This document shows, in pieces, positions 5,768 through 24,685 of a stretch of 27,133 nt of DNA. Source of the stretch: Parietichytrium sp. I65-24A. Lineage: Eukaryota > Sar > Bigyra > Thraustochytrida > Thraustochytriidae. The stretch spans positions 1 through 27,133 of the forward strand of contig BLSF01000149.1 in NCBI GenBank assembly GCA_012862575.1, read 5' to 3'. Position 1 is the first letter of the stretch. Every line of letters starts with the position of its first letter. The notes beneath the pieces were generated by a model. That model did no database searches. It was given only the letters and a program-made list of their open reading frames with translations, and was not told the origin of the DNA. The position numbers and the translations under genes were made by a program.

Positions 5768-5863
5768 CACATGTATAAACGGATCTATAGAGAAAAAACG
5801 GATCTATCGGGCTTTCATTGCCACCACCAGACCCCCAATTCAACCCAACCTTCTCACGCGAAA

Positions 5864-6691: not shown

Positions 6692-7061
6692 GATATGGCT
6701 TGAATAGCTTTTCAATGTTGTTTCGAAGACTTTGAAGCGACGTTTCTGACAATGAGCCCAGGATCTGCGCATTGATGACTTGAGGGTCTGGATCATCGAG
6801 GAGATAATACAACTCGTACCCATCCAGCCAATCAACAATGATATTTCTTGCGGTGTCGTACGGACTTGTATTTACTATGAATGGCGGTAGACAAATTGAT
6901 TCCCCACGGCAGACTACACCGATAATGTAATTGCTGACACGTTCAGCCTGACATCGCCCATGTACGCATATCTTGTCGTTTACAGCTAATAGGCCTGCGA
7001 AAACGTCGTCGAAAGTGATGTCATATTCTTCTTTCATTGCGATACTACTACAAATCTCCAT
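6669..7061 (-). CDS. Orphan acidic protein
   Basis: 130 residues with no recognised domain. There is a short Cys-containing segment (KICVHGRC), then a mixed beta/helical region. It overlaps the MYND gene tail to tail, and its start lies only 15 bp after the stop of the next minus-strand gene, whose terminal codons contain this gene's TATA-like box (7093-7099). Function unknown. Confidence 0.55.
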   Translation of the reverse strand: MEICSSIAMKEEYDITFDDVFAGLLAVNDKICVHGRCQAERVSNYIIGVVCRGESICLPPFIVNTSPYDTARNIIVDWLDGYELYYLLDDPDPQVINAQILGSLSETSLQSLRNNIEKLFKPYPKKLNST

Positions 7062-7076
7062 TTTTTTATCACATCT

Positions 7077-7658
7077 CTATCTAATTTGCATGGTATATAG
7101 ATGATTCACGTCATCAGAATTCCAACGATTCCAACGTTGAATAGTTCGTTCGCCTGTAGTTGGATCTCGATGAAAGATTCCTAAACAAAAGCAGCCAAAC
7201 TTCATGGCATGATCCATGTTTAACATCAGATCATTGCTATCGCGACTGTCTAGGAATGCGTATGTCATTATTTCATCCTGATTTTGTAAGACAAAGCGAA
7301 TGATTCCATTTCTGTGCACCACCCAGATGTATGGAACTTCAAACTGAAAAGTCTCTCCAAAAGTTCCATCTGGTGGATTGTTGATAGGATGATGCAAATC
7401 AGCTCTCGCGATTTTGCATTTGCCCATGTCTATTGCACCAACAATGTCGCTGCCTCGCGCACATGACTTGCAATTAGAGTCAAGTTGAGTTGCAAACGCA
7501 TGACCGTTCACACGTGGATCGGATGCTGGGATGATGCACTCTTCCGATGTGACGTATTCAAAGTCGCCATGTATTGTTGAAAACGTGACGGTGCCAATGA
7601 CATCATGGATATCGTTAATCGGGGTCGCAAATTGGCGAGCAATGCTCTCAGAATTCAT
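7077..7658 (-). CDS. Orphan beta-rich protein
   Basis: 193 residues from the ATG at 7658. The frame stays open upstream to about 8108, but those codons overlap the PAP2 gene, are low in complexity and would include the TATA-like box at 7690-7697, so the short form is preferred. The protein has a CKSC motif near residue 58 and alternating hydrophobic strands (for example PYIWVVHRNGIIRFVL), compatible with a small beta-sandwich. No known family recognised. Confidence 0.6.
   Translation of the reverse strand: MNSESIARQFATPINDIHDVIGTVTFSTIHGDFEYVTSEECIIPASDPRVNGHAFATQLDSNCKSCARGSDIVGAIDMGKCKIARADLHHPINNPPDGTFGETFQFEVPYIWVVHRNGIIRFVLQNQDEIMTYAFLDSRDSNDLMLNMDHAMKFGCFCLGIFHRDPTTGERTIQRWNRWNSDDVNHLYTMQIR
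7093..7099 (-). promoter_or_regulatory. TATA-like box nested in a coding end
   Basis: TATATAC on the gene strand, 32 nt before the ATG at 7061, inside the last codons of the 7077-7658 gene. Confidence 0.5.
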
Positions 7659-7689
7659 CTCTTTTTGGTTCCTAAACAAAAAACTGTCC

Positions 7690-7697
7690 GTATATAT
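7690..7697 (-). promoter_or_regulatory. TATA-like box
   Basis: ATATATAC on the gene strand, 32 nt before the ATG at 7658; it decides the start choice for that gene. Confidence 0.5.
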
Positions 7698-7980
7698 TAT
7701 CATTCTTGGTTTGTAGATGCCGCAAGTATCACCGCCGCTGCTGCCATTGCTGCTGCTGACGTTGAGCGAGGGTAAAAAATATGAGCAGGTGTTGGTGGAG
7801 TAGAGTAAAACAATGCTGCATTTCGTCGTTGTCTGCGCTGATTGGTGCCGCCGATGTTGCTGCTGTTGTCGATACTTTGTGTCATATTTTATCGTTGCGC
7901 GCTCACCCGAGTTTGGTGTTTGCTCATTGCACGATGCTTCCACTCGCTCAAATGAACAAAAACGAACGTGCGTTAATTCC
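7698..7980. other. Intergenic stretch with GCTGCT/GCCGCC triplets
   Basis: About 280 bp between the PAP2 stop and the promoter of the 7077-7658 gene. It contains imperfect GCC/GCTG triplet runs. No convincing gene is seen on either strand. Confidence 0.4.
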
Positions 7981-9066
7981 TTAGTAGTCGTTACTAACAA
8001 TCCATCGATTGAGGTGGTAGACACCTGCGACATGCCATAAACCATAGAACACCTGCATCGGCATTCGCACGATGTATTCGTTGGTGATTTTGAATTGCTT
8101 GGCGACAAAGTTGCGAATAAAACGCTCCATCACAGTCAGAAAGACGCTTCCAAGAACGGACAAGACTGCCATCTGATATTCTCCTCCATCCTCCGGGAAT
8201 GGCTCTTCGACCTCCATCCCACCATGCGCCAGTCCGAGAAAGAGACTCATCAAGTAAATGTAGTTTGTGATGTCCGTAAAGATCATAAAGATCTTGACGC
8301 GTGATGGGTAGTTATTAACGGGAACTCGAGCGATATACGGTGGTGGTGCAATCGATTGCCCGTTGAAAACAACGTATAACGCTGCAATGTGTGCCAAAAT
8401 CAACGCCGTCGAAATTCCTACAATGTAGTAGAACGCTGTGTGAATGTTAAATGCATTGATAGGGACTGCTAGATTGATATAGTATGATACTACTGCGAAT
8501 AGTGTCCCAATCAACGCCCCAACTAGCACATCTTGAGGCCAATGGACAGCCAATGCCAGCCTGGAACATCCGACAATCAGCGTTGCTAGACAATATGCCA
8601 GCATGGATTGCCACTGGCAATTGTAGTACATTGCAAACATCATGGAAGCAAATGAAACAAACGCGGTATGTCCACTTGGGAATGAGAAATCTCTGGTGGG
8701 TGCATCGGGAGTTCGCACTCGATCCGACGCTACCCATTGAGGCCTAGGTACTTGTATGTAGGATTTTAGAAAGTCGACAGTAGGGGAGACTAAGATGTCG
8801 CCGTACACCTCTAGTCCCAATTGGACATTCCAGCTAACATGCGCAGGTAGGATCCAGTACATTGCAGGCCATAGCGTGATCTTGATAGGACGCTTATAGA
8901 GCCAATGAAAGAGTAATGAGAGGGGTTCGAGGAAGAATTTGAAACGCTGGAAGAAGCAGATGAGGCTGATCTGTAACTCTTCATATGGGACTACCGCTTC
9001 GCGTTCTGAGTTTATTATTTTAGGTGGTAGTGGTGGCGTCGTAATCACAAAAGAACTGCTGCACAT
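7981..9066 (-). CDS. PAP2-family membrane lipid phosphatase
   Basis: An integral membrane phosphatase of the PAP2/acid-phosphatase superfamily, probably dephosphorylating a lipid phosphate such as sphingosine-1-phosphate or phosphatidate. All three signature boxes are present (numbering from the ATG at 9066, 361 residues): K101-x6-R108-P109, P130-S-G-H133, and S168-R169-x5-H175-x3-D179. Several hydrophobic spans surround them (about 62-85, 133-150, 154-172, 180-200, 215-238), with further spans toward the C-terminus. The order of spans and the long C-terminal membrane half resemble eukaryotic S1P-phosphatase-like proteins. An in-frame ATG at 9126 would add 20 residues; a weak TATA-like sequence at about 9109-9117 favours the shorter form. 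Confidence 0.85.
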   Translation of the reverse strand: MCSSSFVITTPPLPPKIINSEREAVVPYEELQISLICFFQRFKFFLEPLSLLFHWLYKRPIKITLWPAMYWILPAHVSWNVQLGLEVYGDILVSPTVDFLKSYIQVPRPQWVASDRVRTPDAPTRDFSFPSGHTAFVSFASMMFAMYYNCQWQSMLAYCLATLIVGCSRLALAVHWPQDVLVGALIGTLFAVVSYYINLAVPINAFNIHTAFYYIVGISTALILAHIAALYVVFNGQSIAPPPYIARVPVNNYPSRVKIFMIFTDITNYIYLMSLFLGLAHGGMEVEEPFPEDGGEYQMAVLSVLGSVFLTVMERFIRNFVAKQFKITNEYIVRMPMQVFYGLWHVAGVYHLNRWIVSNDY

Positions 9067-9202
9067 GGTGGTCTGCGTTTTCAAGGACTGATTTTTTTTC
9101 TTGACTTGGAAATTATATCTATACATCTATGGATATCATGTCACCACAATTATCACAATGGCGTTGTGATATCGAAGCGAAGTTTGTCACGTGTGGGTTT
9201 GT

Positions 9203-9478: not shown

Positions 9479-9520
9479 ATGAATGAACGAATGGATGAGT
9501 GAATGAATGAATGAATGGCG
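9479..9520 (+). repeat. GAATGAATG simple-sequence tract
   Basis: An imperfect run of GATGAATGAACGAATG units. It marks the change from the compact gene territory to the repeat-rich territory. Confidence 0.6.
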
Positions 9521-9562
9521 ACACTGTTTATTTCACCAACTGGTACGCCCGGTACCAAGCCT

Positions 9563-9580
9563 GGAAATCAACGGTGTCGC
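9563..9580 (+). repeat. Dispersed GAAATCAAYGGTGTCGC motif
   Basis: GGAAATCAACGGTGTCGC here matches, with two changes, the motif found after the stops of recombinase-cluster genes 2 (21912-21930) and 3 (23531-23549). It is probably a stray end of the same element family. Confidence 0.45.
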
Positions 9581-12240: not shown

Positions 12241-13518
12241 TCACACGTCTCCGTTCACCAAATCGGGGAAAACCTCTCTTGACAGGCGCATTGCATGAAA
12301 ATAGGCACACAGGTACGACAATATGGCTTCACGTGTCTTGACCCACATAAGAGGCGAACTGAAGAACATAAGCGAGATATTTCTCGCGCGTGCAATGAGA
12401 CGTTTCATCTCTTTGGAAGACGTTTTTGGAAAGCACTTCGCAAGATCAGGAGATAAATCGTTGATACGGGACATGTACTTGGCATATACTGATTTATTCT
12501 CCGGCTTCAAGCTTAGACACGCCCCATTCGATAAAGTACCCAAAAAACCGACTAAATCTTCATGCGGAGTCATGAACCTGACCGATCCAAAGTCTACAAG
12601 AGCAATGTTACCACAATTATTGAACATGACGTTGTGTGCCCATGGATCGCCGTGGCTCAAAATTTTGGCGCCGCCTATATTATCACCAAAAGACTCGATC
12701 ATTGCCTCCTTGCTTGACTTTAGTTCGTTGATGTGCTCCTTGAAGTTTTGATGAAACGGCCATATTTCAATGGCCTGATCAAGCGAGTGTCGGAGAATCT
12801 GTCTACCCATGGATATGGCAGTGTCGTTGTTCATAGACTCGGTGAACTCAAACTGGTCCCGGATGCTCCATAGAGCAATGTGAAAATCAGCAAGCGCGAT
12901 CGCAAATGCCTCACTCTGGTCAAAATCAATATTGTCCGTGTATTTCTGTGTCTTGAAATCACGCGCCGTGAGATCCTCCATGACCAGCATCGTCGGGTGT
13001 TTCTCCTCGGCCTCAGGGTCAATAAAAACCTTTGGACCTTCAAACAATTTTGGAATGACCAGCTTGGTGTCTTCTGGTAGCAACAAGGTGCCATCATCTG
13101 CAGCTTTCCACCATTTGCGCAAAAACGCACGCTCGAGCTTTAGTTGATCGGTAGGCTCCATGATCGCCAGTGACGGTGGGCATTTCTCGTCATACTCGGC
13201 AAGAGCATCCTGCCCGGCTTCTTTGATGGCATCCTCGTCTTTTCCAAGTGTCCTGGCCCACTCCTCCGCCTTGATGCGCACATTGTCTCGCTGCTCCTTT
13301 GCTTGCTCCTTGTACGAGTGTTCGGGGACCACCTTGATAAACAGCGGCACCTCCCATCGCGGTCCACGCAACGTAAAGCTCGTCGACTGCAAGCCCAAAC
13401 TGTCCTTGATCACCTCGAGTACATCGCCATCTGCCTCACTCAACCCAAGTGCACGCACTACCCTGTCGCGTGATTGCTCAGGGTTGTCGAGCTTCAAGTC
13501 CTGCCGCAACTGCTCCAT
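12241..13518 (-). CDS. APH/choline-kinase-like small-molecule phosphotransferase
   Basis: 425 residues from the ATG at 13518. A kinase of the aminoglycoside-phosphotransferase / choline-kinase / ecdysteroid-kinase-like fold, probably phosphorylating a small alcohol. A candidate phosphate-binding lysine is in FIKVV (K62). The hinge is LVMEDL (178-183). The catalytic Brenner motif is H289-G-D291 with N296, and the metal-binding D309-F-G follows in LVDFGS. The substrate cannot be inferred. The frame is open upstream to 13671, but the added residues are low in complexity and cross a CG microsatellite (13554-13566), so the inner ATG is preferred. Confidence 0.8.
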   Translation of the reverse strand: MEQLRQDLKLDNPEQSRDRVVRALGLSEADGDVLEVIKDSLGLQSTSFTLRGPRWEVPLFIKVVPEHSYKEQAKEQRDNVRIKAEEWARTLGKDEDAIKEAGQDALAEYDEKCPPSLAIMEPTDQLKLERAFLRKWWKAADDGTLLLPEDTKLVIPKLFEGPKVFIDPEAEEKHPTMLVMEDLTARDFKTQKYTDNIDFDQSEAFAIALADFHIALWSIRDQFEFTESMNNDTAISMGRQILRHSLDQAIEIWPFHQNFKEHINELKSSKEAMIESFGDNIGGAKILSHGDPWAHNVMFNNCGNIALVDFGSVRFMTPHEDLVGFLGTLSNGACLSLKPENKSVYAKYMSRINDLSPDLAKCFPKTSSKEMKRLIARARNISLMFFSSPLMWVKTREAILSYLCAYFHAMRLSREVFPDLVNGDV

Positions 13519-13579
13519 TCTTTTTTTCCTGGCTGGTGAGGTTGGAAGCGCACGCGCGCGCGCGCGTCTCGGTAGACAG
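13519..13579. repeat. CG dinucleotide tract upstream of the kinase-like gene
   Basis: An alternating CG/CGCG run (about 13551-13566) just upstream of the kinase-like ATG, followed by TAGG repeats. No TATA-like box is evident, unlike the compact genes. Confidence 0.5.
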
Positions 13580-13715
13580 GTAGGTAGGTAGGGACGGATG
13601 GATGGATGAAAGCAACGTGCAGTTGCGTGTCTGCTTGTGCTCCGGCCTGTTGCTTGTGTCAGAGTGTGCACGGGGTCGTAGTATGAATATTAAATTATAT
13701 TTTGTAGATATAAAA

Positions 13716-13905
13716 AATAGTTCGTTGTTCGTCCATATGATGTCACATGTACCCCAATGTTAATCTGGTCCAGCCGAGCTAGCGGCTATTGTACAAAACA
13801 GTAGTTCATTAAAAAAATAGTTCGTTGTTCGTCCCGACATAACAAAGCCGTCCATGATATTAGGGAAATAGTTCGTTGTTCGTTCGGACGTATCAAAGCA
13901 GTCCT
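13716..13905 (+). repeat. Iterated AATAGTTCGTTGTTCGT units, copy A
   Basis: Three units begin near 13716, 13814 and 13865. The second and third continue as GACRTAWCAAAGCMGTCC. Such iterations look like clustered protein-binding sites. Confidence 0.65.
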
Positions 13906-13934
13906 TGTTCCGTAGTAGATGCGACGCGACGAGA

Positions 13935-13999
13935 GTGAAACCACCAGTGCCGTAAGGATGGTTCAATGCAACCAATTGTGACGGCAAAGATGGTTTGAC
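13935..13999. repeat. Inverted repeat, copy 1 of 4 (copy A version)
   Basis: The left arm is GTGAAACCACCAGTGCCGT (13935-13953) and the right arm is GTGACGGCAAAGATGGTTTGAC region (13978-13999), able to form an imperfect hairpin. The same structure precedes each of the three recombinase-cluster genes. Confidence 0.6.
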
Positions 14000-14055
14000 T
14001 GCTTGAATCACCCATTCATTTTTCAAAAAATAAATCATTCCCAACGAAAATAACC

Positions 14056-16035
14056 TCAACTCAGGAAAATCGGAGTCCTCGTCTGGACCCGCTGGCGACA
14101 GATATGGCATTTGACCAACCGCGCAGAGCACGCCTTGCATGCCACATGTCCGCATTGGAAAGCGGTAGGTTGAAGCTCCCCATTACATTCGAGCGTCTCA
14201 AAGCACACTCGGCATTCACTTTTATCCGGAGCATTTTCTTTGGCAGAGGGAATCTCAACTCTGATCATCGAAAGCGCTCCGTTTGCAGCGTTTTGCACGC
14301 CTTCATGATTCGGATGAGTTTCCAAGACCTTGTTGATCCGCTCAATGGCACCTAGTTGCATCAGCCTGATTTTAATTTCAAGATGATTCGCACCAAGGTT
14401 TGCAAGCGCTCCACATGCACATTCTTGCACGTCCGCACGGCCCAGATAATTTTTTTTTTTTGGCCGCATCGAGTAGCTCAAGGGCACCTAGCTGCACAAA
14501 TTTCCTTAGATTCTCAGGATGATTCTCAGTAAGGCTTGCAAGCGCTAGACATGCACTTCCTTGCACGTCCGCATGCTCCAGATGTCTTTCCATGGCCGCA
14601 ACGATCCGCTCACCGGCACCTAGTTGCATCAACTCGGTACAATAACCATTAGCAAGGTTTTTAAGCGCTCTGCACGCATGCTCTTGCACGCCCGCATGGT
14701 CCAGATGTCTTTCCATGGCCGCAACGATCCGCTCACCGGCACCTAGTTCCATCAACTCGGTACTATAACGATAAGCAAGGTCTTCAACGAGTAGTGTNGC
14801 ACGCCCGCATGGTCCAGATGTCTTTCCATGGCCGCAACGATCCGCTCACCGGCACCTAGTTGCATCAACTTTTCTTTATGACGAATAGAAGAAAGATAAT
14901 CATAAGCAAGGTATACAAACCCTCTGCATGCACATTCTTGCACGCCAGCATGGTCCAGATACTCGTCCATGGCCGCAACGGTCCGCTCGATACTGTCGTT
15001 TGTTGTATATATCACACTGAATTGGGTACAAAGCGCGTTGGATGTCATTTTTTTCACGAATGTATCCATGAGGGCAACGATCCGCTTTGGTTGTAAAACC
15101 ATCACACCAACGAACGCAAGACAGACTGCATACACGGGTGGATGTGTTTTCATAAGCGTAATCGCAATTGGGACCATAAGCGCGAGTGTAAACGCGAGGG
15201 TAGCGGTCGACGAAAACATGCCCGCAACCAGTTCCCGGTGCCGCCTCGCAAAGAGGTCGACCAAATACACAACTTGGGAGATAACCCAACATATTGAGTA
15301 CAAGCATATTAGTATTAGAGACGCATAAAGGAACGAACCAAACAATATCCCCACACATTCCATGTATATGTCCGTCAGGGGAACCAATCCCGATATCGAG
15401 CTTCCCAATTCCGCGTTTCTCTGTATGTATTTCTGCGTGTTCTTGGAATCGAAACCGCCGATATTGTCGTGGATGGCCTGTATCATCCACACCTCACCAA
15501 AGTGCACAATCGCGTTCATAAGCTTGCACATAGCAAATTGTGCAACGATCGCAAGTACGAACATAAGCCAACACAAAATCATATGCGTAACAAAAACCGC
15601 AAATGCATGTATAGAGCCATCAAAGCGTGACTGATTTTCATCAAGTTTTTTCGAAACCAACCATTGCATAGCCATTACAGGAGTTGTCAATCGGTGTGAT
15701 AATCTTCCCAAATATATGCCAAGAAATACCAACGATATCAAGTAACCTAAGGCATCGTAAGCAAGCAGAACTTCATCTCTGTAGTTGTCCAAACTCAGCA
15801 AAAAATATGTAATGGATAGTAAAAAAACGTCCACAATCCAGAACTCAAGGACGAGGTTCCATAATCCCCCAATTTGCTCACATGTAAAGACAAGTAGTAT
15901 TTGAAGGATATAAACTATCTCTTTCTCCAATGAATACATGTGTACCAGTAGTAGTATTCCAAGGGCATATTGTAAGCTAACTTCGTTTGGAATGAGAAAC
16001 AAGTCCGCATCCGCATCCATTGGAACCGGCGCCAT
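14056..16035 (-). CDS. Multi-span membrane armadillo-repeat RING protein, interrupted by two sequence faults
   Basis: One gene read in three frame segments (16035 to about 14800, then to about 14461, then to 14056). The N-terminal 315 residues hold about seven hydrophobic spans (near 22-53, 60-82, 92-115, 143-168, 226-258, 270-290, 296-313). Then come armadillo-type repeats of about 40 residues with near-identical cores (LGAGERIVAAMERHLDHAGV), and a C-terminal C3HC4 RING (ECRVC ... QCGHVACKAC ... CHIC). This suggests a membrane-anchored E3 ubiquitin ligase. The frame breaks at an N (14799), where about 10 bp are missing relative to sister repeats, and at a 12-T run (14450-14461). Both look like assembly or sequencing faults in repeats, so repeat number is uncertain. 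Confidence 0.7.
14380..14990 (-). repeat. Armadillo-repeat coding tandem array
   Basis: Units of about 120-126 bp share TCTTTCCATGGCCGCAAC and GATCCGCTCACCGGCACC on the plus strand, recurring near 14580, 14707 and 14819, with a diverged version near 14960. The first three are nearly identical at the DNA level, indicating recent expansion or conversion and explaining the assembly gap at 14799. Confidence 0.8.
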
Positions 16036-16785
16036 TTGTTGTTCGGTGACTGGAAGGCAATGAACTACTGCCCAGGGAACGGGGACTGCTGCTCAGTCGA
16101 AAACTGTCCCTTGGAAGAGATTGATTCACAAAACTTGTTACTGAGCTTACATAAGAGTTGAGTAGGATGGATTATGTCACGGGCGGATGGGTGAACAGGT
16201 GAGCGCTGTCGGGGGAAACAGACGTGTGTGCGACACCATTGTCCATTTTCTTTCTGCATAGAGTGTATGAACAAGAAACGGAAGACTCGTTGACACGCTA
16301 GATAGCTATTAAGACTCTACCTTTCACTATATTGCTAATAGAAGGATCTTACGACCATTGTCCATTTCTTCCATTATTGTGTGTGTTATGTTGTTACTAA
16401 GACTCTTCCTTTAGTCCTTTCCACATCCGCGCCGACGAAAGTGGATTCTTCCATTGTACTGTAACAAAGCCCCCCCCCCTCGATAGACTATAAGCTATCA
16501 TAGCATTTCTTCTATGTAACAGGCACCCTCTCGTGACGTCTTATAGTTTGCTACTATTTCCACGTGGTGACTGGAGTGAGTGAAAATGTAACATGTAACC
16601 CCTGAGTGAACGTGTGAAATAATACTTTTATTTTTTCTGGTAGCATCTACATCTAAAAAAATCTGACCACATTTGCTAATCCCCCAGCAAGTGGAAACTG
16701 TACGGCGAAAAGGGAGTGGTAGCTGCCTAGTGAATGCACGTTTCGTTCTACTGCTTTGCACGTCGCATTCTACGGAGAGGAATAG
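16036..16785. other. Gene-poor spacer
   Basis: About 750 bp. It contains two GACCATTGTCCATTT-like segments (near 16232 and 16352), of which the first starts as GCGACACCATTG like the cluster's 3' motif, a run of nine or more C (16470-16479), and a small GATAG...CTATC palindrome (16482-16499). Short frames here lack domain or promoter support. Confidence 0.45.
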
Positions 16786-16977
16786 AGCTGCCGTAAGGCA
16801 GTTCTATCCGATCCTCCCGTTAGGCGATTGAGTACGCCTGCCGAAGGCATGGCGTTACTCAAGAGCCTATGCACCGAGTAAGCCTGGCTTCGGCAGACGC
16901 AACTCGCGAAGATGGACTGTGAACGCGCAACTCTCAAGCACGAAGAAGACCGCCGAAGGCGGGCGCACTTTGGCTTG
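16786..16977. ncRNA. GC-rich block of strong hairpins, possible structured RNA or organellar insert
   Basis: Four hairpins in 190 bp: AGCTGCC-GTAA-GGCAGTT (16786-16803); a 15-bp stem with two single bulges capped by GAA (16828-16862); CGAGT...ACTCG (16875-16906) containing a CTTCGG turn; and CCGCC-GAA-GGCGG (16950-16962) inside an outer CAAGC/GCTTG pair (16935-16977). The GNRA-type and UUCG-type caps and the GC content stand out from the neighbourhood. It could be a structured RNA gene, a transferred organellar palindrome cluster, or a DNA foldback element. Strand is undecidable. Confidence 0.35.
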
Positions 16978-16991
16978 TAACAGATAAAATA

Positions 16992-17351
16992 GTAGGTAGG
17001 TAGGGACGGACGGATAGATGAAAGCAACATGCAGTTGCGTGTCTGCTTCTTGTTGCTTCTGTTGCTCGTGTCAGAGTGTGCACGTGGTAGTAGTAGTGGG
17101 AATATTTGGAAATATGAACTTATATTTTGTGTATATAAAAATAGTTCGTTGTTCGTCTGGACGTAACAAAGCGGCCAATGGTGTTATGGAAATAGTTCGT
17201 TGTTCGTTCGGACGTAACAAAGCCGTCCTGGTTCCGTAGTAGATGCGACGCAAGTGAAACCACCAGTGCCGTAAGGATTGTGACGGCAAGGATGGTTTGA
17301 CTGCTTGAATCCTTCATTCATTTATTCGTTCGTCGTAAAAAAAAATCATTC
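16992..17351 (+). repeat. Long direct repeat, copy B
   Basis: The second copy of the 13580-14041 repeat, in the same orientation, ending 145 bp before recombinase gene 1. It includes two GTTCGTTGTTCGT iterations (17141-17157, 17190-17206), each followed by GGACGTAACAAAGC, and the GAAACCACC inverted repeat. Confidence 0.75.
17254..17301. repeat. Inverted repeat, copy 2 of 4, before recombinase gene 1
   Basis: The left arm GTGAAACCACCAGTGCCGT (17254-17272) faces GTGACGGCAAGGATGGTTTG (17280-17299), with a 7-bp loop. It lies about 195 bp before the ATG at 17496. Confidence 0.65.
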
Positions 17352-17495
17352 GAGACGGAAAAGTCCGTTGTAAACTAACGCAGCGCAACGGACAAGAAGC
17401 AAACCAGAGCAGACCAGACCAGTCCACTCCAGGCCAGACCCGCAATTACAAACCGCGCTCAAGCAAAGCGAAGCAAACTACGTCACGTCAACACA

Positions 17496-19217
17496 ATGGA
17501 TGACGAGGAGCTTTTCTTTGAGTTTGATGCCACCATATGCGAATCCAATGTTGCCTCACCAGACAACGACGACCTGGACTGGGATGAATTGATGCATTTT
17601 GCTTCTTCTTCTTCTTATGATGATGATGATGTCCTGGGCGAAGAAATTCTTTTAAAAAAAGAGCTGGTGTCGCCGCAGCCGCAGCCACAACCGCAGCCAC
17701 AGCCACAGCCGCAACCGCAACCGCAACCTCATCTCATCGTCATCGTCAAAAACCCTGGTGATGTGCCTCAGGTTGTTCAATTCAAAGCGCAAGACGTGAG
17801 AATCAAAAAGTTTCTGAAAGCCATGTCCGAGCAATGCGACTTTATAGGCGGCGATGGTAAAATGTTTATCGATTACTTTCAGTCAACTTTGCGAGCAAAG
17901 GTGAATCGTGACACTGTGAGTGCATTCGCGTCCAATTACATTGTCGAGTTTAGTGAGTATCAGCGGAGGAAACAAAATGCAACTGGTGGGACAATGACTC
18001 GTCGATTGAAGGAAGCGTTCGATCGCTGGAAGATTCCATACGATGAGAACAAGGTCAATGTCGTCGTTCGCGAACTTTTACGTGAAGAGCATCAGTCCCA
18101 GTCCCCACTAAAACAACGAAAACTGATGAGTGATAGCATGTTTGTGAATGAAGTGGTGAAATTCGAGCAATGCTTGCGTAAATTGATCAAGTTCCTAGGA
18201 TCGACCAGTGCGTCCATGATGAAAAAACAATGCAGTGCTGCAGTAGATCATTTTAAATGCTCAAAACGATCCAATTTGGTGGAAAGTTTGACCAAAATGA
18301 TGGCATTGGATGATTTATTACTGACCAAGTATATGATGGCATTGAGGGCGATGGTTGCCATTTCGTCAGTGACAGGTCTTCGACTTTTAGCGTACAATCG
18401 GATGCGAATCGAAGATATCAAACTTTCTAGCAACAAGGACGGGCTTATCATCTCTTACCAGGATTCAGCGACGGCGACGACACTTTATTGTAAGGCAGTG
18501 AGGCATAAAGATCCCCAAGTCGATGCGATTGTCTGTCTGTCACAGTACATTTCATTTCTACAAAAGCATTCAGTGGCGCAGCAGTCTAGGCCAACAACCA
18601 AAAGGCGGTTCAAAGACAACATTCGTGATCTTGGGTTTCCTGAATTGCTTTTTATTACAAGCGACCAGCACCTGTGTAGTGAGATGACCTGGTTGAGAGA
18701 TTTTAATGGCCTACTGATCGCAGCTGCTTTTGCCACCGGCGATTCGGAGCTCTTCCAAAAGAGTAACAAGAAATTCCATCAAATTCGCTGGTATTGTAAT
18801 GCCATGCTTACCATCCGCGGTGCATTGGAATCTGAGCGAGAACTTTTACTGGGAGAGTCACCCAAACCATTACATGCAGTAGAGACCAATAAAGCGTGTT
18901 TCATTGCAGCCCAGCGTTTGAACAGGTTATCGTCTACGGCTGGCGGCGAAAAAATTGAGGATGAGCCAAGTACCTGGAAGCGAGTGCCAACTGATTGTGA
19001 CTATTATCCCGGGCAAATTAATGCCATCTGCTCCATTGCGGAAGAAGAATCAGTCGAGAAGAAGTACCATCGCGAATTAAAGGATGAAATCCGCGAGCTG
19101 GAAAGTAGGTATCGAGAGACGAACGATGAAGTCAATAAACTCAAGCGAACGATGGAGTTTCTGGAAGTGGAGATGGCACTGAAGCGCTCGAAAATAAATT
19201 CGTTGAGGTGCACGTAA
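17496..19217 (+). CDS. Recombinase-cluster gene 1: tyrosine-recombinase-like protein lacking catalytic Lys and Tyr
   Basis: 573 residues. An acidic N-terminus with DWDELM (28-33) and about ten Pro-Gln repeats is followed by a helical SAM-like DNA-binding region sharing EYQ-x-RKQNATGGTMTRRL with gene 2, then a recombinase core. Kept: the box I arginine R296 (SVTGLRLLAYNRMR) and the box II pair H428-x-x-R431. Lost relative to gene 2: the Lys-bearing beta-turn (gene 2 K383) and about 12 residues with the GW motif and nucleophile Tyr537; here LLLGES runs directly into PKPLHAVE. It ends in a coiled coil and lacks gene 2's C-terminal domain. DNA binding without cleavage is the likeliest activity. 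Confidence 0.72.
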   Translation: MDDEELFFEFDATICESNVASPDNDDLDWDELMHFASSSSYDDDDVLGEEILLKKELVSPQPQPQPQPQPQPQPQPQPHLIVIVKNPGDVPQVVQFKAQDVRIKKFLKAMSEQCDFIGGDGKMFIDYFQSTLRAKVNRDTVSAFASNYIVEFSEYQRRKQNATGGTMTRRLKEAFDRWKIPYDENKVNVVVRELLREEHQSQSPLKQRKLMSDSMFVNEVVKFEQCLRKLIKFLGSTSASMMKKQCSAAVDHFKCSKRSNLVESLTKMMALDDLLLTKYMMALRAMVAISSVTGLRLLAYNRMRIEDIKLSSNKDGLIISYQDSATATTLYCKAVRHKDPQVDAIVCLSQYISFLQKHSVAQQSRPTTKRRFKDNIRDLGFPELLFITSDQHLCSEMTWLRDFNGLLIAAAFATGDSELFQKSNKKFHQIRWYCNAMLTIRGALESERELLLGESPKPLHAVETNKACFIAAQRLNRLSSTAGGEKIEDEPSTWKRVPTDCDYYPGQINAICSIAEEESVEKKYHRELKDEIRELESRYRETNDEVNKLKRTMEFLEVEMALKRSKINSLRCT

Positions 19218-19250
19218 TGAATTACTAATGAATCTTATGAATGACTAGAT

Positions 19251-19313
19251 GAAACCACTAGTGCCGTCACCAATTGGTTTTGCAAAAGCAACAGTGACGG
19301 CATGGGTGGTTTC
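19251..19313. repeat. Inverted repeat, copy 3 of 4, before recombinase gene 2
   Basis: GAAACCACTAGTGCCGTCAC (19251-19270) against GTGACGGCATGGGTGGTTTC (19294-19313): 17 of 20 positions pair, with three central mismatches. The 23-bp spacer is AT-rich. It lies 109 bp before the ATG at 19423. Confidence 0.8.
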
Positions 19314-19315
19314 AA

Positions 19316-19422
19316 ACTTCCTTCCTTCCTTCCTTCCCAACCGCAACCGCAACCGCATCAGACCCGCAACTGCGCTGTGCGACCAAGCAAGCAAAGCAAA
19401 GTAAAGCAAAGCAAAGCAAGCG
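19316..19422 (+). promoter_or_regulatory. Leader of gene 2, homologous to the leader of gene 3
   Basis: A TTCC run, AACCGC repeats, then CAGACCCGCAACTGCGCTG and AAGCAAAGC repeats up to the ATG. The leader of gene 3 (22147-22240) is nearly the same, and that of gene 1 retains CAGACCCGCAA and AAGCAAAGC. No TATATAC box is present. Confidence 0.55.
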
Positions 19423-21876
19423 ATGGAGCTCCTCTTTGATGTCACGCACAAGTCCGGAGTCTCTCCGGCCGACATCGACTGGGATGAACTGATGCGTTGT
19501 TCTTCGGATGTTGTTGAAGTGACGAATGAAGCGCATGAACAAAAACCTCCGTTGTCACCAGCACAAGTTGAAGCAGTTTTAGCACCGACGCAACAGCAAA
19601 TTCGTATCATGATCGTAAAAAAGTCTGGTGACGATCGCGATGATATCGGAGATGTCGAATTTAGTAACAATGCCATTGTTCAGTCATTCCTTGTGAAAAA
19701 TGGCGCGGCTCTCTCTACCGCCACTAGCACTGCAACAACATTGTCAGTCAACGGCAGTGACTCAGAGACTGCGAGTTCATCTGAAGGCGTTGGTGGTACT
19801 GGCGTTGGTGGTACTGGCAAGAAACTGTCGGCTCATTACAAAAAGCAAGACGCCAAAATTAGACAGTTTGTCCAATCCATGGCAGATCGTTGTACCTTTG
19901 TGGGTGGCGATCGTGAAACGTTTCTTGAACACTTTCGATCTACCTTACGAGCAAAGGAGAATCGTGATGCAGTGTGTGCATTCACGTCCAAGTACCTTGC
20001 CGAATTTATTGAATATCAGCAGAGGAAACAGAATGCAACGGGTGGAACGATGACTCGACGTTTGAGAGAAGCGTTCGATCGCTGGAAGATTCCGTACGAT
20101 GAAAAGGAGGTGAATAATATCGTGCGTATACTCATGCGTGAAGAACATCGAAAGCAGCAATCACCGCGAAAGCAGCGATTCGGAAAAGAATTGAACGGTG
20201 GTAGTAGTAACAGCAATAGCAAGAGCAACAGTCTGATGGATGTGGCAAAGTTCCAGCAATGCTTGCGTAAATGGATCGTGTACCTAGGTTCTACTAGCGC
20301 GTCTGTGATGAAGAAGCAATGCAGTGCTACCGCAGATCATTTTGAATCGGCAATGGGGATCTCGAAACGATGTTACCTGGTGGAAACGTTTAAAAAACTT
20401 GCAAACCTAGATGACCTCTTGCTTACAAAGTATATGATGGCACTAAGGGCAATGATTGCAATTTCGTCAGTGACAGGTCTTCGGCTTGTGGCGTACAACC
20501 GGATGCGAGTCGGGGATATCAATCGTTCAAACAACAAGGAGGGTTATATCATTTCTTACCATACGGGCAAGACGCAAAAGGGTTTGATGACGACTCTTCA
20601 TTGTAAAGTCGTGAGACACATTGACCCACAAATCGATGCAATTGTTTGTCTGTCACAGTATATTGCATATCTACAGAATCAGCCGAAGGTGGATCCACAA
20701 TCACACAGCAGCAGCAGCAGCATCAGGAGCGGGAAGAAACTCAACAAGACCAAAGACATTCGTGATCTCGGGTTCACAGAGTTGCTCTTTATTACAAGCG
20801 ATCAGCACGCAAAGAGCGAGATGACATGGTCAAAGGATTTCAATGGTCTACTACTGGCAACTGCCTTCAGCACTGGAAGCTTGGAACTCTTTGAGAATAG
20901 CAGTCATAATTTCCATCTCATTCGTGGGTATTGTACTTCTATGCTCACAGTACGCGGTGCACTAGAATCTGAGCGGCATCTGTTACTGGGATGGTCAGAC
21001 AACGCACAAAAGTCAACCGAACGCAAGCATTACCTTCCAGAAATGCATGCTGTGGAGGCCAATAAAGCATGCTTCATTGCAGCCCAACGTCTCGACCGGT
21101 CTGGGGACATAGTTGGTGAAATCGAGAACGAGTCAAGTATCTGGGAAAGTGTGCCGAAAGACTGTGAATATTTTCCCGGGCAAATTGATGCCATTTGCTC
21201 AATTGCGGAATCGGCTGGTGTGAGGTGTATATGTTTGCCACAACGTCAGCAGGATCAACAACAAGACCAGATTAGACGCATTCTGGAGACTGAGGCTCAA
21301 ATCCGAGAATCGAAAAACAAGGAATCGTTGGACATAAAGTATCGAAAGTCGGTCATGGAGGTGAATAAACTCAAGCGAAATGTAGAGTCACTTGAAGCGC
21401 AAATGACTCAAAAACGTTTGAAGACTGGAGAACAAAGTACTTTGGTAACTACATTCAAGACTCCGCTTGAACATCTCGAACACATTTGGTCGACCTATCT
21501 CAAGCCCAATGTGAAAAACGATGATTTTCCACAAAGGTGTGTGGATGTTTTCAGAAACCATTTGGTAAACGTCATCGACACGAATCGCAACCATAATCTC
21601 CCGCATATTTTTGCTGGGATTGACGGGATGGACTCTTCTTCGGGGTTTGCTAAAAAGTTGTTTGCAGTGTTTGACTTGGCTTGTATGTCTCCAATCATCA
21701 ACAGCGGGGGGCAAGCGACGACAACACGTGAGAAAGGCCAATCTTGGGTCGCCTGGATCACTGCGCCCAAAAACAAAGGAGAGGTGAATCTGTTGCTGAT
21801 TCGGGCGATGGAGCGACATACCATAAAGCGACGTTGGGATCACATTAGTTCGCACATTTTGAAGACATCGGGCTAA
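19423..21876 (+). CDS. Recombinase-cluster gene 2: full-length Cre/Crypton-like tyrosine recombinase with extra C-terminal domain
   Basis: 817 residues. Order: acidic N-terminus with DWDELM (19-24); Ser/Gly linker; helical core-binding region (about 140-330); catalytic domain; coiled coil (about 625-665); unknown C-terminal domain (about 683-815). Catalytic candidates are R354 in VTGLRLVAYNRMRVGDI, K383 in the YHTGKTQKG beta-turn, H498 and R501 in FHLIRGY, W524 in LLLGWSDN, and Y537 in KHYLPE. Together these reproduce the R-K-H-R-(H/W)-Y set of tyrosine recombinases and resemble Cre and Crypton enzymes. No GCR1-type domain was recognised. An inverted repeat before the gene and a GTGAAATCAATGG motif 35 bp after the stop may be its DNA sites. 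Confidence 0.75.
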   Translation: MELLFDVTHKSGVSPADIDWDELMRCSSDVVEVTNEAHEQKPPLSPAQVEAVLAPTQQQIRIMIVKKSGDDRDDIGDVEFSNNAIVQSFLVKNGAALSTATSTATTLSVNGSDSETASSSEGVGGTGVGGTGKKLSAHYKKQDAKIRQFVQSMADRCTFVGGDRETFLEHFRSTLRAKENRDAVCAFTSKYLAEFIEYQQRKQNATGGTMTRRLREAFDRWKIPYDEKEVNNIVRILMREEHRKQQSPRKQRFGKELNGGSSNSNSKSNSLMDVAKFQQCLRKWIVYLGSTSASVMKKQCSATADHFESAMGISKRCYLVETFKKLANLDDLLLTKYMMALRAMIAISSVTGLRLVAYNRMRVGDINRSNNKEGYIISYHTGKTQKGLMTTLHCKVVRHIDPQIDAIVCLSQYIAYLQNQPKVDPQSHSSSSSIRSGKKLNKTKDIRDLGFTELLFITSDQHAKSEMTWSKDFNGLLLATAFSTGSLELFENSSHNFHLIRGYCTSMLTVRGALESERHLLLGWSDNAQKSTERKHYLPEMHAVEANKACFIAAQRLDRSGDIVGEIENESSIWESVPKDCEYFPGQIDAICSIAESAGVRCICLPQRQQDQQQDQIRRILETEAQIRESKNKESLDIKYRKSVMEVNKLKRNVESLEAQMTQKRLKTGEQSTLVTTFKTPLEHLEHIWSTYLKPNVKNDDFPQRCVDVFRNHLVNVIDTNRNHNLPHIFAGIDGMDSSSGFAKKLFAVFDLACMSPIINSGGQATTTREKGQSWVAWITAPKNKGEVNLLLIRAMERHTIKRRWDHISSHILKTSG

Positions 21877-21911
21877 CTCACGGAGCAAATTAATTGATGT
21901 ATAAGAAAGAA

Positions 21912-21930
21912 GTGAAATCAATGGTGTCGC
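21912..21930 (+). repeat. 3' motif after gene 2
   Basis: GTGAAATCAATGGTGTCGC, identical to the right arm of the foldback after gene 3 (23531-23549), and alignable at 12 of 19 positions with the left arm of the 5' inverted repeat (GTGAAACCACCAGTGCCGT). It is followed within 7 bp by a gene-1-like fragment. Confidence 0.65.
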
Positions 21931-21936
21931 AAACCC

Positions 21937-22032
21937 AACGATGAAGTCAACAAACTCAAGCGAACGATGCAGTTTCTGGAAGTGGAGATGGCACTGAAGC
22001 GTTCGAAAATAAATCCGTTGAGGTGCACGTAA
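21937..22032 (+). pseudogene. Fragment of a gene-1-like 3' end
   Basis: 32 codons including the stop, in frame, nearly identical to the last codons of gene 1 (19122-19217). Two amino-acid changes are visible (Glu to Gln, Ser to Pro). Homology continues into the spacer up to the next inverted repeat. It shows that another gene-1-type copy once lay between genes 2 and 3 and was lost by deletion or unequal exchange. Confidence 0.85.
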
Positions 22033-22082
22033 TTAATCAGTGTTTAATCTAATGGACCTTATGAATGACGTATGAATGTAAT

Positions 22083-22146
22083 GAAACCACTAATGCCGTC
22101 ACCATTTGGTTTTTGGAAAAGCAACAGTGACGGCATGGGTGGTTTC
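22083..22146. repeat. Inverted repeat, copy 4 of 4, before gene 3
   Basis: GAAACCACTAATGCCGTCAC (22083-22102) against GTGACGGCATGGGTGGTTTC (22127-22146). The right arm is identical to that of copy 3. It lies 95 bp before the ATG at 22241. Confidence 0.8.
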
Positions 22147-22240
22147 AACTTTTCTTCTTTCCTTCCTTCCTCCCTTCCTTCCCAACCGCATCAGACCCGC
22201 AACTGCGCTGCGAACAAGCAAAGCAAAGCAAAGCAAAGCG

Positions 22241-23461
22241 ATGGAGCTCCTCTTTGATGTCACGCGCAAGTCCGAAGTGTCTCCAATCGACATTGATTGG
22301 GATGAACTGATGCGTTGTTCTTCCTTGGAAGATGAGAAGAAGAAGAAGAAGAAGGAGTATGTTGATGACCTTGGACTGGTAACTGACGATGATCAAAGTC
22401 ATAGCGACGATGAAACGAGGGATGATAAAAACGACAGCGACAGCGGCAACATTGACTGTGATGAACTGATGGGTTGTTCTTCTTTGGAAGATGAGAAGAA
22501 GAAGAAGAAGTATATTGATGACCTTGGTCTGGTAACTGACGATGATCAAAGTCATAGCGACTATGAAACGAATGATGATGTTGATGATAAAAACGGCGGC
22601 GGCAGCAGTAGCAGCGAGAATGATGACCTTGGACTGGTAACTGATGATGATCAAAGTGACCTTGGACTGGTAACTGACGATGATCAAAGTCATAGCGACT
22701 ATGAAACGAGGGATGATAAAAACGGCAGCGGCATCAGCAGCAGTGAGAATGTTAAAGTCATTGTGATTCTGAACGAAACGCTACGACGAAAGAATAAGCG
22801 TCTGATGCTCGAAAACATTGAACTGAAAAACAATGTCCAGCGACTGGAAAGAGACATTACCTACAATCGGATAACGTCGAATCAACATGAGCAGCAGCAG
22901 CCGCAACAACAAGTAGCACTAGATGATGTCCTATCGCCGCATGACAAGGTGATACAGATCTGGGACATGTACCTTAAGCCGCATGTAAAGCAGACAGATT
23001 TCCCGATGAGATGTCTGTCGATTGTGAGAGATCATCTCATCCCTCTCATTGATGCGAATAGAAGCCTCGGGCACAAGCACATTCTTTCGGGAGTGAATCT
23101 GGAGTCCAACTCAGCAATAGGGAAGCGAATCTATTGCGTAATTGATTTGGCCTGTATTGCATCAGTACAAGGCGGTGAGTTGTGTCGCGAACTGCTCTCG
23201 AGGGAAGAAGGCCAATCATGGTTTGCCTGGGCAAACAACAAGTTGCACAGGCAGGAGTTGAATGCAATTCTTGCGGTTTTAATGCCTGGTAGATCACGGT
23301 TTCGAAATTGGAATCAAATCAGCCACCTTATTCTTCATCCGGCTTCCGTGAACGTGTCCTTGGTGGAGGCGATGAAAAACATTGACGATGGCCTTCCATC
23401 CGTTTCTCCGCCTCGAGTTGTAGAGAAATTACATGGCAATAAACGACAAAGAGTATGTTAG
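22241..23461 (+). CDS. Recombinase-cluster gene 3: recombinase-less relative with acidic repeats and the shared C-terminal domain
   Basis: 406 residues from the ATG at 22241, chosen because its first codons match those of gene 2. The N-terminus (MELLFDVT ... DWDELMRCSS) is followed by lysine runs and four copies of an acidic DLGLVTDDDQS unit with a second CDELMGCSS module, then a coiled coil (about 170-212) and the C-terminal domain (about 235-370). That domain matches gene 2: W-x-x-YLKP-x-V, DFP-x-RC, a hydrophobic IDLAC-type strand, EGQSW-x-AW and W-x-x-ISH-x-IL. The entire recombinase core is absent. It could regulate, tether or compete with gene 2 through the coiled coil or the shared domain. 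This is inference. Confidence 0.65.
   Translation: MELLFDVTRKSEVSPIDIDWDELMRCSSLEDEKKKKKKEYVDDLGLVTDDDQSHSDDETRDDKNDSDSGNIDCDELMGCSSLEDEKKKKKYIDDLGLVTDDDQSHSDYETNDDVDDKNGGGSSSSENDDLGLVTDDDQSDLGLVTDDDQSHSDYETRDDKNGSGISSSENVKVIVILNETLRRKNKRLMLENIELKNNVQRLERDITYNRITSNQHEQQQPQQQVALDDVLSPHDKVIQIWDMYLKPHVKQTDFPMRCLSIVRDHLIPLIDANRSLGHKHILSGVNLESNSAIGKRIYCVIDLACIASVQGGELCRELLSREEGQSWFAWANNKLHRQELNAILAVLMPGRSRFRNWNQISHLILHPASVNVSLVEAMKNIDDGLPSVSPPRVVEKLHGNKRQRVC
22318..22750 (+). repeat. Coding tandem repeats of gene 3
   Basis: AAG runs (GAGAAGAAGAAG) and four copies of GACCTTGGWCTGGTAACTGA with GATGATCAAAG, at about 22358, 22519, 22624 and 22658. High DNA identity with only silent or single changes indicates recent expansion. 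Confidence 0.8.
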
Positions 23462-23488
23462 GAAAATAAATTATTTGATCTAATGTTG

Positions 23489-23549
23489 GCGACAATGTTG
23501 ATTTCATCAGATTGGTTACGTACGTAACAAGTGAAATCAATGGTGTCGC
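23489..23549. repeat. Foldback after gene 3
   Basis: GCGACAATGTTGATTTCATC (23489-23508) faces GTGAAATCAATGGTGTCGC (23531-23549). The centre holds a perfect 14-bp palindrome GTTACGTACGTAAC (23515-23528). It is 27 bp after the gene 3 stop. The structure resembles a terminal inverted-repeat site or a small MITE. Confidence 0.75.
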
Positions 23550-23822
23550 TATTGATGTCATCATCGTCATATAAAACAAAAATTAAATTTGTACGCTGAT
23601 CATTGATTGCTTCTATATCATGCACGTGTTGGTTTGTCATTTACTCTTCGATACTTGCTCTGAGCAATACATCTGTTGTTATTTAAGCAATTTATGTGAC
23701 AAAACATCTGAAAATATATGTTTTTGAAGGCGGTAGACTTTAAGATTAAGTCAGTCGTATGTCTAGATGATGCGATTCTAAGTAGATAGTGGAGGTGGAC
23801 TTTAACTTTACGCCGCCTAAGC
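23550..23822. other. AT-rich spacer
   Basis: About 270 bp between the recombinase cluster and the RING-CH gene. It has loosely inverted AGGCGGTAGACTTTAA (from about 23728) and TTTAACTTTACGCCGCCT (to about 23819). No gene is supported. Confidence 0.4.
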
Positions 23823-23830
23823 TTATATAC
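23823..23830 (+). promoter_or_regulatory. TATA-like box of the RING-CH gene
   Basis: TTATATAC, 37-44 nt before the ATG at 23867. It marks the return of the compact-territory promoter signature. Confidence 0.5.
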
Positions 23831-23866
23831 ATGTACACTTACGAAAAGAGAGAGGGAGAAAAATAA

Positions 23867-24685
23867 ATGTTGGAAAATGAAATGTCACGCGAGAATAATA
23901 TTGATGCAAAGACGCCATTGATGACCAAGTCATGTCGCATTTGTCTGGAAGAAGAAGAAGAAGACCTAAAAGGAGGAAAAGGAGATCTGATTGCACCTTG
24001 CTTGTGTGCTGGAACGTGCAAATATGTCCATCGAGAATGTCTGGACAATTGGCGGGTTGCTGATGTTGGATTGAACGCGTTCTATCAGTGTCCCAACTGT
24101 AAATTTCATTACGAGTTTGTAAAAGAGATGAACATCATGCAACGCATCTCTGCCATGTCATGGTTTCTCGCCCAAACTCTGCTGCTGATCGTGGGCTTTC
24201 TTGTCGTCATGTCATGTGCAGCCATCTTTTTTTCATTTTTGATCATTGTATTCGTTCGATCTGATAAGCTTCATTTCTCTGTCGAGAGTCTAATGGAGAC
24301 ATTTCCAATTGGATTGTTCTTTGCGTTTTTATTGATTGGTTTCATCTCGATCTTTTACATTTCCGTCACCACTCCAAGCAATGCTCGAGGCACCGCTTCA
24401 AGCACCGCTTCAAGCACCACTCAAAGCACGAATGGTCCAACCTGCAATATCATCGCACCAAATTGTTACTGCCCGCCACCAGCACCATCTCATCAGCACA
24501 ACAATTCGATTGTAGATGATCTTGTTGGCGCCTTGTTTGCAATCGTGCTCATTTTCATTGCATTGGTTGGATTGATCACTGCACTCCAGATTATTTGGAC
24601 ACAAATTGAGATCAATCGAACGCGCGCTTGGAAGACACAGATTCATACAAGAATGGTGGTGAAGAATTTAGAAGAAGAAAAGTAA
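23867..24685 (+). CDS. MARCH-like RING-CH membrane E3 ubiquitin ligase
   Basis: 272 residues. The N-terminal RING-CH finger is complete in C4HC3 order: C23/C26, C45/C47, H55/C58, C75/C78, with the typical W at 62 before the last pair. Three hydrophobic spans follow (about 100-130, 147-168, 225-252), with a Ser/Thr-rich loop containing a short tandem repeat (TASS units) and a Cys/Pro-rich segment before span 3. MARCH-family proteins ubiquitinate membrane proteins. The C-terminal tail is basic and cytosolic by analogy. An ATG at 23882 would remove only five residues. Confidence 0.83.
   Translation: MLENEMSRENNIDAKTPLMTKSCRICLEEEEEDLKGGKGDLIAPCLCAGTCKYVHRECLDNWRVADVGLNAFYQCPNCKFHYEFVKEMNIMQRISAMSWFLAQTLLLIVGFLVVMSCAAIFFSFLIIVFVRSDKLHFSVESLMETFPIGLFFAFLLIGFISIFYISVTTPSNARGTASSTASSTTQSTNGPTCNIIAPNCYCPPPAPSHQHNNSIVDDLVGALFAIVLIFIALVGLITALQIIWTQIEINRTRAWKTQIHTRMVVKNLEEEK

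Follow-up and report, generated by a model that had tools for sequence, protein, structure and literature searches.

The window analysed here is the entire contig BLSF01000149.1 (27,133 b, called C149 below) of the thraustochytrid Parietichytrium sp. I65-24A, taken from assembly GCA_012862575.1 (42.5 Mb in 172 contigs). It carries three open reading frames (ORFs) in a row, all on the forward strand, which we call genes 1, 2 and 3. Our preferred reading, to which we assign a probability of about 0.45, is that this tandemly duplicated three-gene set is one multi-protein site-specific tyrosine-recombinase module and that the palindromes lying around the genes would be its sites. It is the most economical account of a putative cutter, a dead sister kept by selection, a relative without recombinase region and non-random half-sites between them. 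The genes are located as follows.

17496-19217, forward strand: gene 1, 573 aa; N-terminus with DLDWDELM, recombinase-like region and coiled coil; C-terminal domain absent.
19423-21876, forward strand: gene 2, 817 aa; the sole member with the full R-K-H-R-W-Y set.
22241-23461, forward strand: gene 3, 406 aa; acidic repeats, coiled coil and C-terminal domain; recombinase region absent.
21923-22054, forward strand: duplicated 3′ end of gene 1, 87% identical to 19108-19239, forming part of the gene 3 "leader".

The original prediction, made from these letters alone, described a modular three-gene layout, and the comparisons agree with it. Genes 1 and 2 have their central and coiled-coil regions in common (53.6% identity over 534 columns, BLASTP). 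Genes 2 and 3 are identical in 25 of their first 28 residues and can be aligned in a stretch made up of the coiled coil and the C-terminal region (64/190, E value 4e-32), and gene 3 is, as had been claimed, a protein with the N-terminus, coiled coil and C-terminal domain and no recombinase. An acidic N-terminus with the WDELM motif is present in all three genes. Homologous leaders with an inverted repeat upstream had also been proposed; the leader DNAs, inverted repeat included, do align (identical/aligned bases: genes 2 and 3, 139/159; genes 1 and 2, 85/149; genes 1 and 3, 82/140), but the repeats are intergenic, with an extra copy at 13935 that no cluster gene follows, and part of the gene 3 "leader" is the copied 3′ end of gene 1 listed above. 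Because this end recurs between genes 2 and 3, the three-gene set is evidently a product of tandem duplication.

The residues of gene 2 that resemble a catalytic set, and the two regions downstream of them, are located as follows.

20482-21033, forward strand: catalytic-like residues of gene 2, namely R354 (20482-20484), K383 (20569-20571) or K386 (20578-20580), H498 (20914-20916), R501 (20923-20925), W524 (20992-20994) and Y537 (21031-21033).
21244-21423, forward strand: long helix of gene 2 and probable coiled coil, residues 608-667, in a low-confidence model.
21463-21873, forward strand: C-terminal all-helical domain of gene 2, residues 681-817, held in common with gene 3.

Judged by the order of its residues, gene 2 is likely a divergent tyrosine recombinase, of a fold that is unproven. 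Its residues R354, K383/386, H498, R501, W524 and Y537 are ordered as in Cre and Flp, and they give the R-K-H-x-x-R-[H/W]-Y arrangement of the superfamily with its usual local spacing. The distances between them are 29 or 32 (R-K), 3 (H-R), 23 (R-W) and 13 (W-Y), compared with 28, 3, 23 and 9 in Cre and 32, 3, 22 and 13 in Flp, as computed from the residue numbers in PMC4381057 (what we take from this and the other cited papers refers to the portions of their text available to us). Three spacing patterns of increasing strictness, written after the sequence had been seen, were matched by 68, 9 and 0 of 40,000 shuffles; of the 277 real sequences compared (274 ORFs plus three proteins), gene 2 alone matched them, being listed twice. 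The second copy of gene 2, on contig C146, was cut by the locus border in that set and has the same catalytic residues, all positions being kept in both copies. With our own hidden Markov model (HMM), gene 2 reached an E value of 0.0017 and the truncated C146 copy 0.0007, the best of 3,000 shuffles reaching 0.018. The alignment by hhalign to 10 known recombinases, a set that includes Cre, gave an E value of 0.002 at a probability of 14%. The C-terminal domain was modelled as all-helical, with block means up to 84.

Gene 1 had been predicted to keep the recombinase. The region is there and keeps R296, H428 and R431 in the three copies, but in these same three copies the loop with the Lys is absent, a Glu (E454) replaces the Trp and the stretch with the Tyr is absent. 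Gene 1 does not have the catalytic Lys and Tyr required of an active tyrosine recombinase and, with K, W and Y missing in 3/3 copies, we ruled it out as a working recombinase. All three genes are nevertheless under purifying selection between copies. The ratio of nonsynonymous to synonymous substitution rates (dN/dS) was 0.13, 0.20 and 0.24 for the three pairs of gene 1, and 0.17 and 0.28 for the one pair each of genes 2 and 3; the excess of synonymous changes was significant for each gene (approximate p of 7e-13 to 1e-4, in Fisher tests that assume a fixed synonymous-site fraction of 0.24 or 0.22). Considering that the dN/dS is low and the synonymous excess significant, the non-catalytic genes 1 and 3 look functional.

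Two types of palindrome accompany the genes. The A-type is the repeat TGAAACCACYARTGCCGT, inverted, with a loop of ~23 nt between genes 1 and 2 and between genes 2 and 3. The B-type is built as GCGACA-N4-TGATTTCA, a loop and TGAAATCA-N4-TGTCGC, and measures 60-61 bp in 32 of the 40 copies of the fetched stretches. In the window they are found at these places.

17254-17301: A-type inverted repeat ahead of gene 1, with a shorter loop than in C146 and C152; fold z -5.1.
19250-19314: A-type palindrome in the interval between genes 1 and 2, starting 32 nt past the gene 1 stop; fold z -6.7.
22082-22147: A-type palindrome in the interval between genes 2 and 3; fold z -7.8.
13935-13999: extra A-type inverted repeat, in a ~340-bp duplicated stretch, with no cluster gene after it; 3′ of an ARM/RING-like ORF.
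21912-21930, forward strand: B-type half-palindrome following gene 2.
23489-23549: complete 61-bp B-type palindrome, 28 nt past the gene 3 stop; not found there in C146; fold z -6.6.
9518-9580: the window's second B-type palindrome, outside the cluster.

Here and below, the labels ARM, RING, desaturase-like, carrier-protein-like and sphingolipid have no Pfam match behind them and were assigned by eye. The motif that had been noticed downstream of genes 2 and 3 is present, but it is half of the 61-bp palindrome, which is whole after gene 3, nor is it confined to these genes.

The half-sites are non-random. The half-site pattern GTGAAAYCANNRGTGYCGY, written after the sites had been seen, occurs 9 times in the window at ≤2 mismatches, for 0.03 expected. 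Read in the same frame, the A and B half-sites share 13 of 18 positions, a value that 6-7 of 100,000 shuffles reach. All 36 exact matches of the B half-site pattern TGAAATSANNRGTGTCGC, which was shaped on earlier matches, fall on 13 of the 172 contigs, 17 of them on C61; at ≤1 mismatch there were 68 matches vs 4 in the reversed control. The A-type has 9 exact occurrences, confined to C146, C149 and C152, and 5 partners that differ by one mismatch accompany them at those places. At ≤3 mismatches its genome total was 83 vs 109 in the reversed control, and since the control is not below the genome the looser matches are uninformative by number; a possible exception among them is a diverged A-like inverted pair on C18, ~50 nt after an ARM-like ORF.

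As regards position, 13 of the 40 B palindromes lie within 120 nt of an ORF 3′ end, vs 5.6 at random intergenic positions, and 2 of 1,000 trials gave as many; these 40 are not independent, comprising 35 distinct sequences, some in arrays, and were drawn from the fetched stretches only. Near ORF 5′ ends there were 5/40, the random level, and inside ORFs 2/40. The build of the palindromes was tallied on 28 of the 35 distinct copies (60-61 bp), with a search pattern that is biased towards pairing at all but the four N positions. Each of the seven palindromes folded gave a z of -2.7 to -7.8 vs shuffles, values that do not imply folding in the cell, and Rfam returned nothing at gathering score over 13500-24000. 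Other explanations of these repeats were tried and discarded: as general 3′ hairpins of the genome (in a strict scan of 11 stretches, all 6 inverted repeats were A- or B-type), as miniature transposons with target duplications (a lenient search gave a 4-bp match in 4/40 and none longer), and as motifs specific to the cluster genes, which the matches elsewhere in the genome rule out. The original prediction had tied its standing to these motifs going with the genes elsewhere in the genome, and this proved true only in part, the B motif being part of a broader family of palindromes, some of them on virus-like contigs.

In the genome searches, whose counts are lower bounds, gene 1 was found on at least three contigs (C149, C146 and C152), gene 2 on at least two (C149 and C146), C152 having just a start of it, ~100 codons long, and gene 3 on at least two (C149 and C146). 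The full copies contain no internal stop. The cluster is complete, in the same three-gene order, on C149 and C146 and partial on C152. C146 and C149 are mostly collinear in their shared length, with block identities of ~80 to 97%, and several blocks occur in only one of the two; because they are largely collinear we take them, on alignment, as two copies or haplotypes of one region. The C152 copy has different flanks; its homology to the window begins 14 bp outside the first inverted repeat (at 17240) and ends inside gene 2.

17240-17253: left limit of the homology between C149 and C152; reads TAGATGCGAC.

Three blocks differ between C146 and C149. C146:5056-9875, absent from C149, holds an aminotransferase (serine-palmitoyltransferase-like by eye), a short-chain dehydrogenase, a desaturase-like ORF and PAP2, and looks like a sphingolipid gene block; palindromes of a third type lie on both of its borders, and half of one is kept in C149. 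C146:18801-23757, straight after gene 3 and also absent from C149, holds a DUF676 esterase, a carrier-protein-like long ORF and an AMP-binding enzyme, and is bordered by another repeat, as judged by eye. In the opposite direction, the block at 14024-17141 of C149 is absent from C146 and is flanked by copies of a ~340-bp stretch with the A-type repeat, a difference that ordinary recombination between direct repeats also explains.

Taking these observations together under the preferred reading, gene 2, in which the catalytic residue set is present, would be the cutter, with a putative recombinase fold and activity. Gene 1, homologous to it and selected, may be a tyrosine-recombinase-like protein that is dead as an enzyme but retained as a partner that binds DNA. 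Gene 3 could act as an accessory protein, joining via the coiled coil and C-terminal domain that it has in common with gene 2. The palindromic half-sites GTGAAAYCA-NN-RGTGYCGY, non-random and confined to few contigs, are the likely binding or recombination sites that these proteins would recognise. Such a module would probably integrate, excise, resolve or rearrange DNA that belongs to a large virus-like element resident in the genome or was captured by it.

A number of results weigh against this reading. The distance from R to H in gene 2 is 144 residues, vs 116 in Cre and 114 in Flp. The profile check that had been proposed for gene 2 gave weak evidence: beside the hhalign value given above, the match to Pfam Phage_integrase (PF00589) had an E value of 0.012 and 15.8 bits, under the curated cut-off of 27.1; no profile matched gene 2 above its curated cut-off, a genome-wide search for the PF00589 family listed nothing, gene 2 included, and the profile alignments of gene 2 span the first box (TGLR) only. 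Gene 1 had no Phage_integrase match in Pfam, and its E value with our own HMM (0.037) was worse than that of the best shuffle (0.018). The AlphaFold models of gene 2, built on two or three sequences each, had mean predicted local distance difference test (pLDDT) values of 39.8 and 39.3; with these weak models, Foldseek and VIA gave no significant match and no tyrosine recombinase among the matches listed, and a family missing from these may still apply. Palindromes are present on C61 (278 kb), where no copy of genes 1-3 was detected. Finally, the block boundaries between C149 and C146 are not at one fixed palindrome point, although 2 of the 3 differences have palindromes at their edges; as the junctions do not fall at one palindrome point, site-specific exchange is not demonstrated.

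In PHROGs, gene 2 was unmatched and genes 1 and 3 had weak matches only, and the sequence search of the PDB gave weak, unrelated-looking matches, none of them to a recombinase. Scanning IMG/VR with gene 2 and with an alignment, and scanning the GTDB genomes, produced pattern matches, none confirmed by tblastn, in scans that suit close relatives best.

The main rival holds that genes 1-3 are regulators of transcription or replication, in which the former recombinase region binds DNA only and the palindromes are their binding sites; we regard it as possible, though on the whole unlikely. The proteins would then combine an acidic activation-like N-terminus (DIDWDELM), a DNA-binding core and coiled-coil dimerisation, in analogy with IE1 and the hr palindromes in baculoviruses. 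It would suit the acidic N-terminus with WDELM found in all three genes, the selection on two members that are non-catalytic, and the palindromes, 40 in the fetched stretches and many of them on C61, where the genes were not detected. Many Crypton-derived genes, whose domain is without most catalytic residues, are likewise transcriptional regulators (PMC3212892). That every catalytic position of gene 2 is kept in both copies would be unexpected if binding alone mattered. The positions of the palindromes cut both ways: their enrichment near ORF ends (13/40, not independent) would suit binding sites, but the ends in question are 3′ and not 5′.

The original prediction itself was of a Crypton-like or Cre-like transposon family in which gene 2 is autonomous and genes 1 and 3 are accessory members, and this we now consider improbable. 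The C152 copy, in unrelated flanks and with homology from just outside the first inverted repeat, is what a mobile element would leave, and the Trp in the active-site set is like that of Cre and Flp. However, this copy stops inside gene 2; neither a right end nor a target-site duplication nor an empty site was found for the cluster; only two full copies of gene 2 were found, beside three of gene 1 and two of gene 3, and C146 and C149, two of the three loci, are for the most part collinear copies of one region; the genes are not separate elements but a single tandem block; and the accessory genes look selected, unlike decaying non-autonomous copies. The absence of a Pfam match to GCR1_C counts on the same side, though CryptonS are also without this domain. 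Least probable is that we are dealing with ordinary tandem duplicates in an unstable repeat-rich region (e.g., subtelomeric, or a virus-host border), with no joint function and unrelated palindromes. The 3′ end of gene 1 copied ahead of gene 3, the dispersed repeat at ~16646-16980 with matches on >20 contigs and the large block differences between C146 and C149 fit such a region, but a dN/dS of 0.13-0.28 in all three genes, full copies without internal stops and an identical three-gene order in both full copies do not.

Comparing the module with known systems, we take the W-S-D beside the active-site Trp to be common to Flp and gene 2, and the palindromes of the cluster are presumably not of the lox or FRT type. 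Gene 2 resembles Cre and Flp in having Trp in place of the usual His of the pentad, and Flp in its 13-residue Trp-Tyr distance (PMC4381057). It differs from Cre in showing no significant full-length similarity to the recombinase set that includes it (Flp was outside the set), and from both in carrying extra N- and C-terminal regions. In integrons, attC sites are palindromes of an outer box, a variable 4-nt stretch, an inner box and a variable loop, often 3′ of an ORF. The B palindromes share this build of box, N4, box and loop and are often 3′ of an ORF; unlike in integrons no fixed crossover point was seen, block boundaries coincide with palindromes only partly, and a simple integron-like exchange looks unlikely with boundaries that are not at a single point. 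No attI was found, though no search aimed at it was made.

With Cryptons, including the CryptonS of stramenopiles, the cluster has in common a eukaryotic tyrosine recombinase and no reverse transcriptase, and CryptonS have, like gene 2, their own C-terminal region and no GCR1_C (PMC3212892). No reverse transcriptase appeared among the Pfam matches of genes 1-3 or of the 11 further window ORFs scanned, in contrast to DIRS/Ngaro, and GCR1_C, the DNA-binding domain of CryptonF, had no Pfam match in genes 1-3 at E values up to 10, a search in which the HMMER filters drop most weak matches. Most CryptonS end in TATGG and Cryptons otherwise have 5-6 bp terminal direct repeats, according to the same paper; neither was seen at the left homology limit, the one end of the copy that was located. 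By their descriptions, Cryptons are also set apart from this cluster by its non-catalytic paralogues in tandem. Membership of the cluster in the Cryptons is unproven, and of the identity first proposed there stands a likely divergent tyrosine recombinase with a Cre/Flp-type Trp and its relatives side by side, but not the Crypton-specific Pfam domain.

The multi-protein arrangement has its parallels in bacteria. In SE elements (IntA-Tfp-IntB-Srap) and GInts (GinABCD), sets of adjacent genes are reported to be essential for recombination (PMC10214605, PMC5385486); Tfp and GinC have a core that resembles a recombinase but is catalytically incomplete, and they stand beside active recombinases, and Srap and GinD are non-recombinases (PMC10214605). 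In the same way the catalytically deficient gene 1 adjoins the active-looking gene 2, and gene 3 is a non-recombinase. There are differences: two catalytically complete recombinases are described there and gene 2 alone is complete here, those systems are bacterial, gene 1 is a paralogue of gene 2, and relatives of gene 2 were unconfirmed in GTDB genomes. Tn554 (TnpABC) has a similar layout but, as described, no dead partner (PMC10214605, PMC5385486). For phaeoviruses, the proposed mechanism is a tyrosine recombinase acting at a site with inverted repeats on either side (PMC12993054); the integrase of endogenous phaeoviruses, compared by description only, differs in being a single gene generally near the element end (PMC13236599, PMC12993054). 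We found no sequence relation, and most pairs were compared by description, and these parallels with SE, GInt and phaeoviruses are best understood as a likeness of working and not as kinship.

Regarding the surroundings, viral hallmark genes occur on palindrome-sharing contigs. On C61 there are a B-family DNA polymerase and a Pox_A22-type resolvase (22.5 bits, cut-off 22). C152 carries at 230-1990 a terminase large subunit, with 26.7 bits for the phage-type Terminase_6N (cut-off 22) and 24.7 for the herpes-type DNA_pack_N (cut-off 25); it was listed as 100% identical to the protein of C164:6066-7826 and had a weak match on C61, which suggests mirusvirus-like DNA in the genome. Because of these matches, we take the palindrome-bearing contigs to stem, at least in part, from large DNA viruses; the cluster itself may be of viral or of host origin. 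Against a virus-derived context count that the C61 polymerase had no match in a pattern scan of IMG/VR and that the one capsid match, given below, is on C116.

C61 is gene-dense and virus-like over its 278 kb, also carries PAP2 and NUDIX genes and has repeated palindromes at 203-219 kb; its polymerase was also matched on C153, C156 (with one TGA inside) and C158. The single match to the major capsid protein of nucleocytoplasmic large DNA viruses listed in the genome is at C116:55066-55647 (E value 5.1e-35), on a contig without exact palindrome matches. In the window, the ORFs at 2531-9126 are tightly packed on both strands, several of them overlapping, in a virus-like layout, and one of the five scanned with Pfam (PAP2) passes its cut-off. 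An ecdysteroid-kinase-like/APH ORF at 12241-13518 has ~750 bp that are 93-94% identical on C126 and C129, where the recombinase cluster was not found in the ~4-kb stretches read. ARM-repeat/RING-like ORFs occur at 14056-14988 and on C18, C34 and C41, their DNA matches forming arrays on other contigs. The dispersed repeat of the window, ~300 nt long at approximately 16646-16980, has matches on >20 contigs, and C149 therefore belongs to the genome of the same assembly.

In the papers compared, a eukaryotic tyrosine recombinase either stands as a single gene (Crypton, phaeovirus integrase) or is a domesticated domain. A more far-reaching form of the preferred reading, which we put forward as speculative and rather unlikely, is that the cluster is a eukaryotic virus-associated counterpart of multi-protein recombinase or cassette systems, whose three proteins would shuffle gene blocks via dispersed 61-bp palindromes; such gain and loss might, at the same low odds, include the palindrome-bordered lipid-gene block that differs between C146 and C149. 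More generally, a cutter and two non-cutting relatives that are all under purifying selection, on contigs sharing palindromes with virus-like DNA, would allow one to test in what way a large virus, or what remains of it, integrates or rearranges in the nucleus of a protist, and whether eukaryotes evolved the bacterial logic of an active recombinase plus a dead partner.

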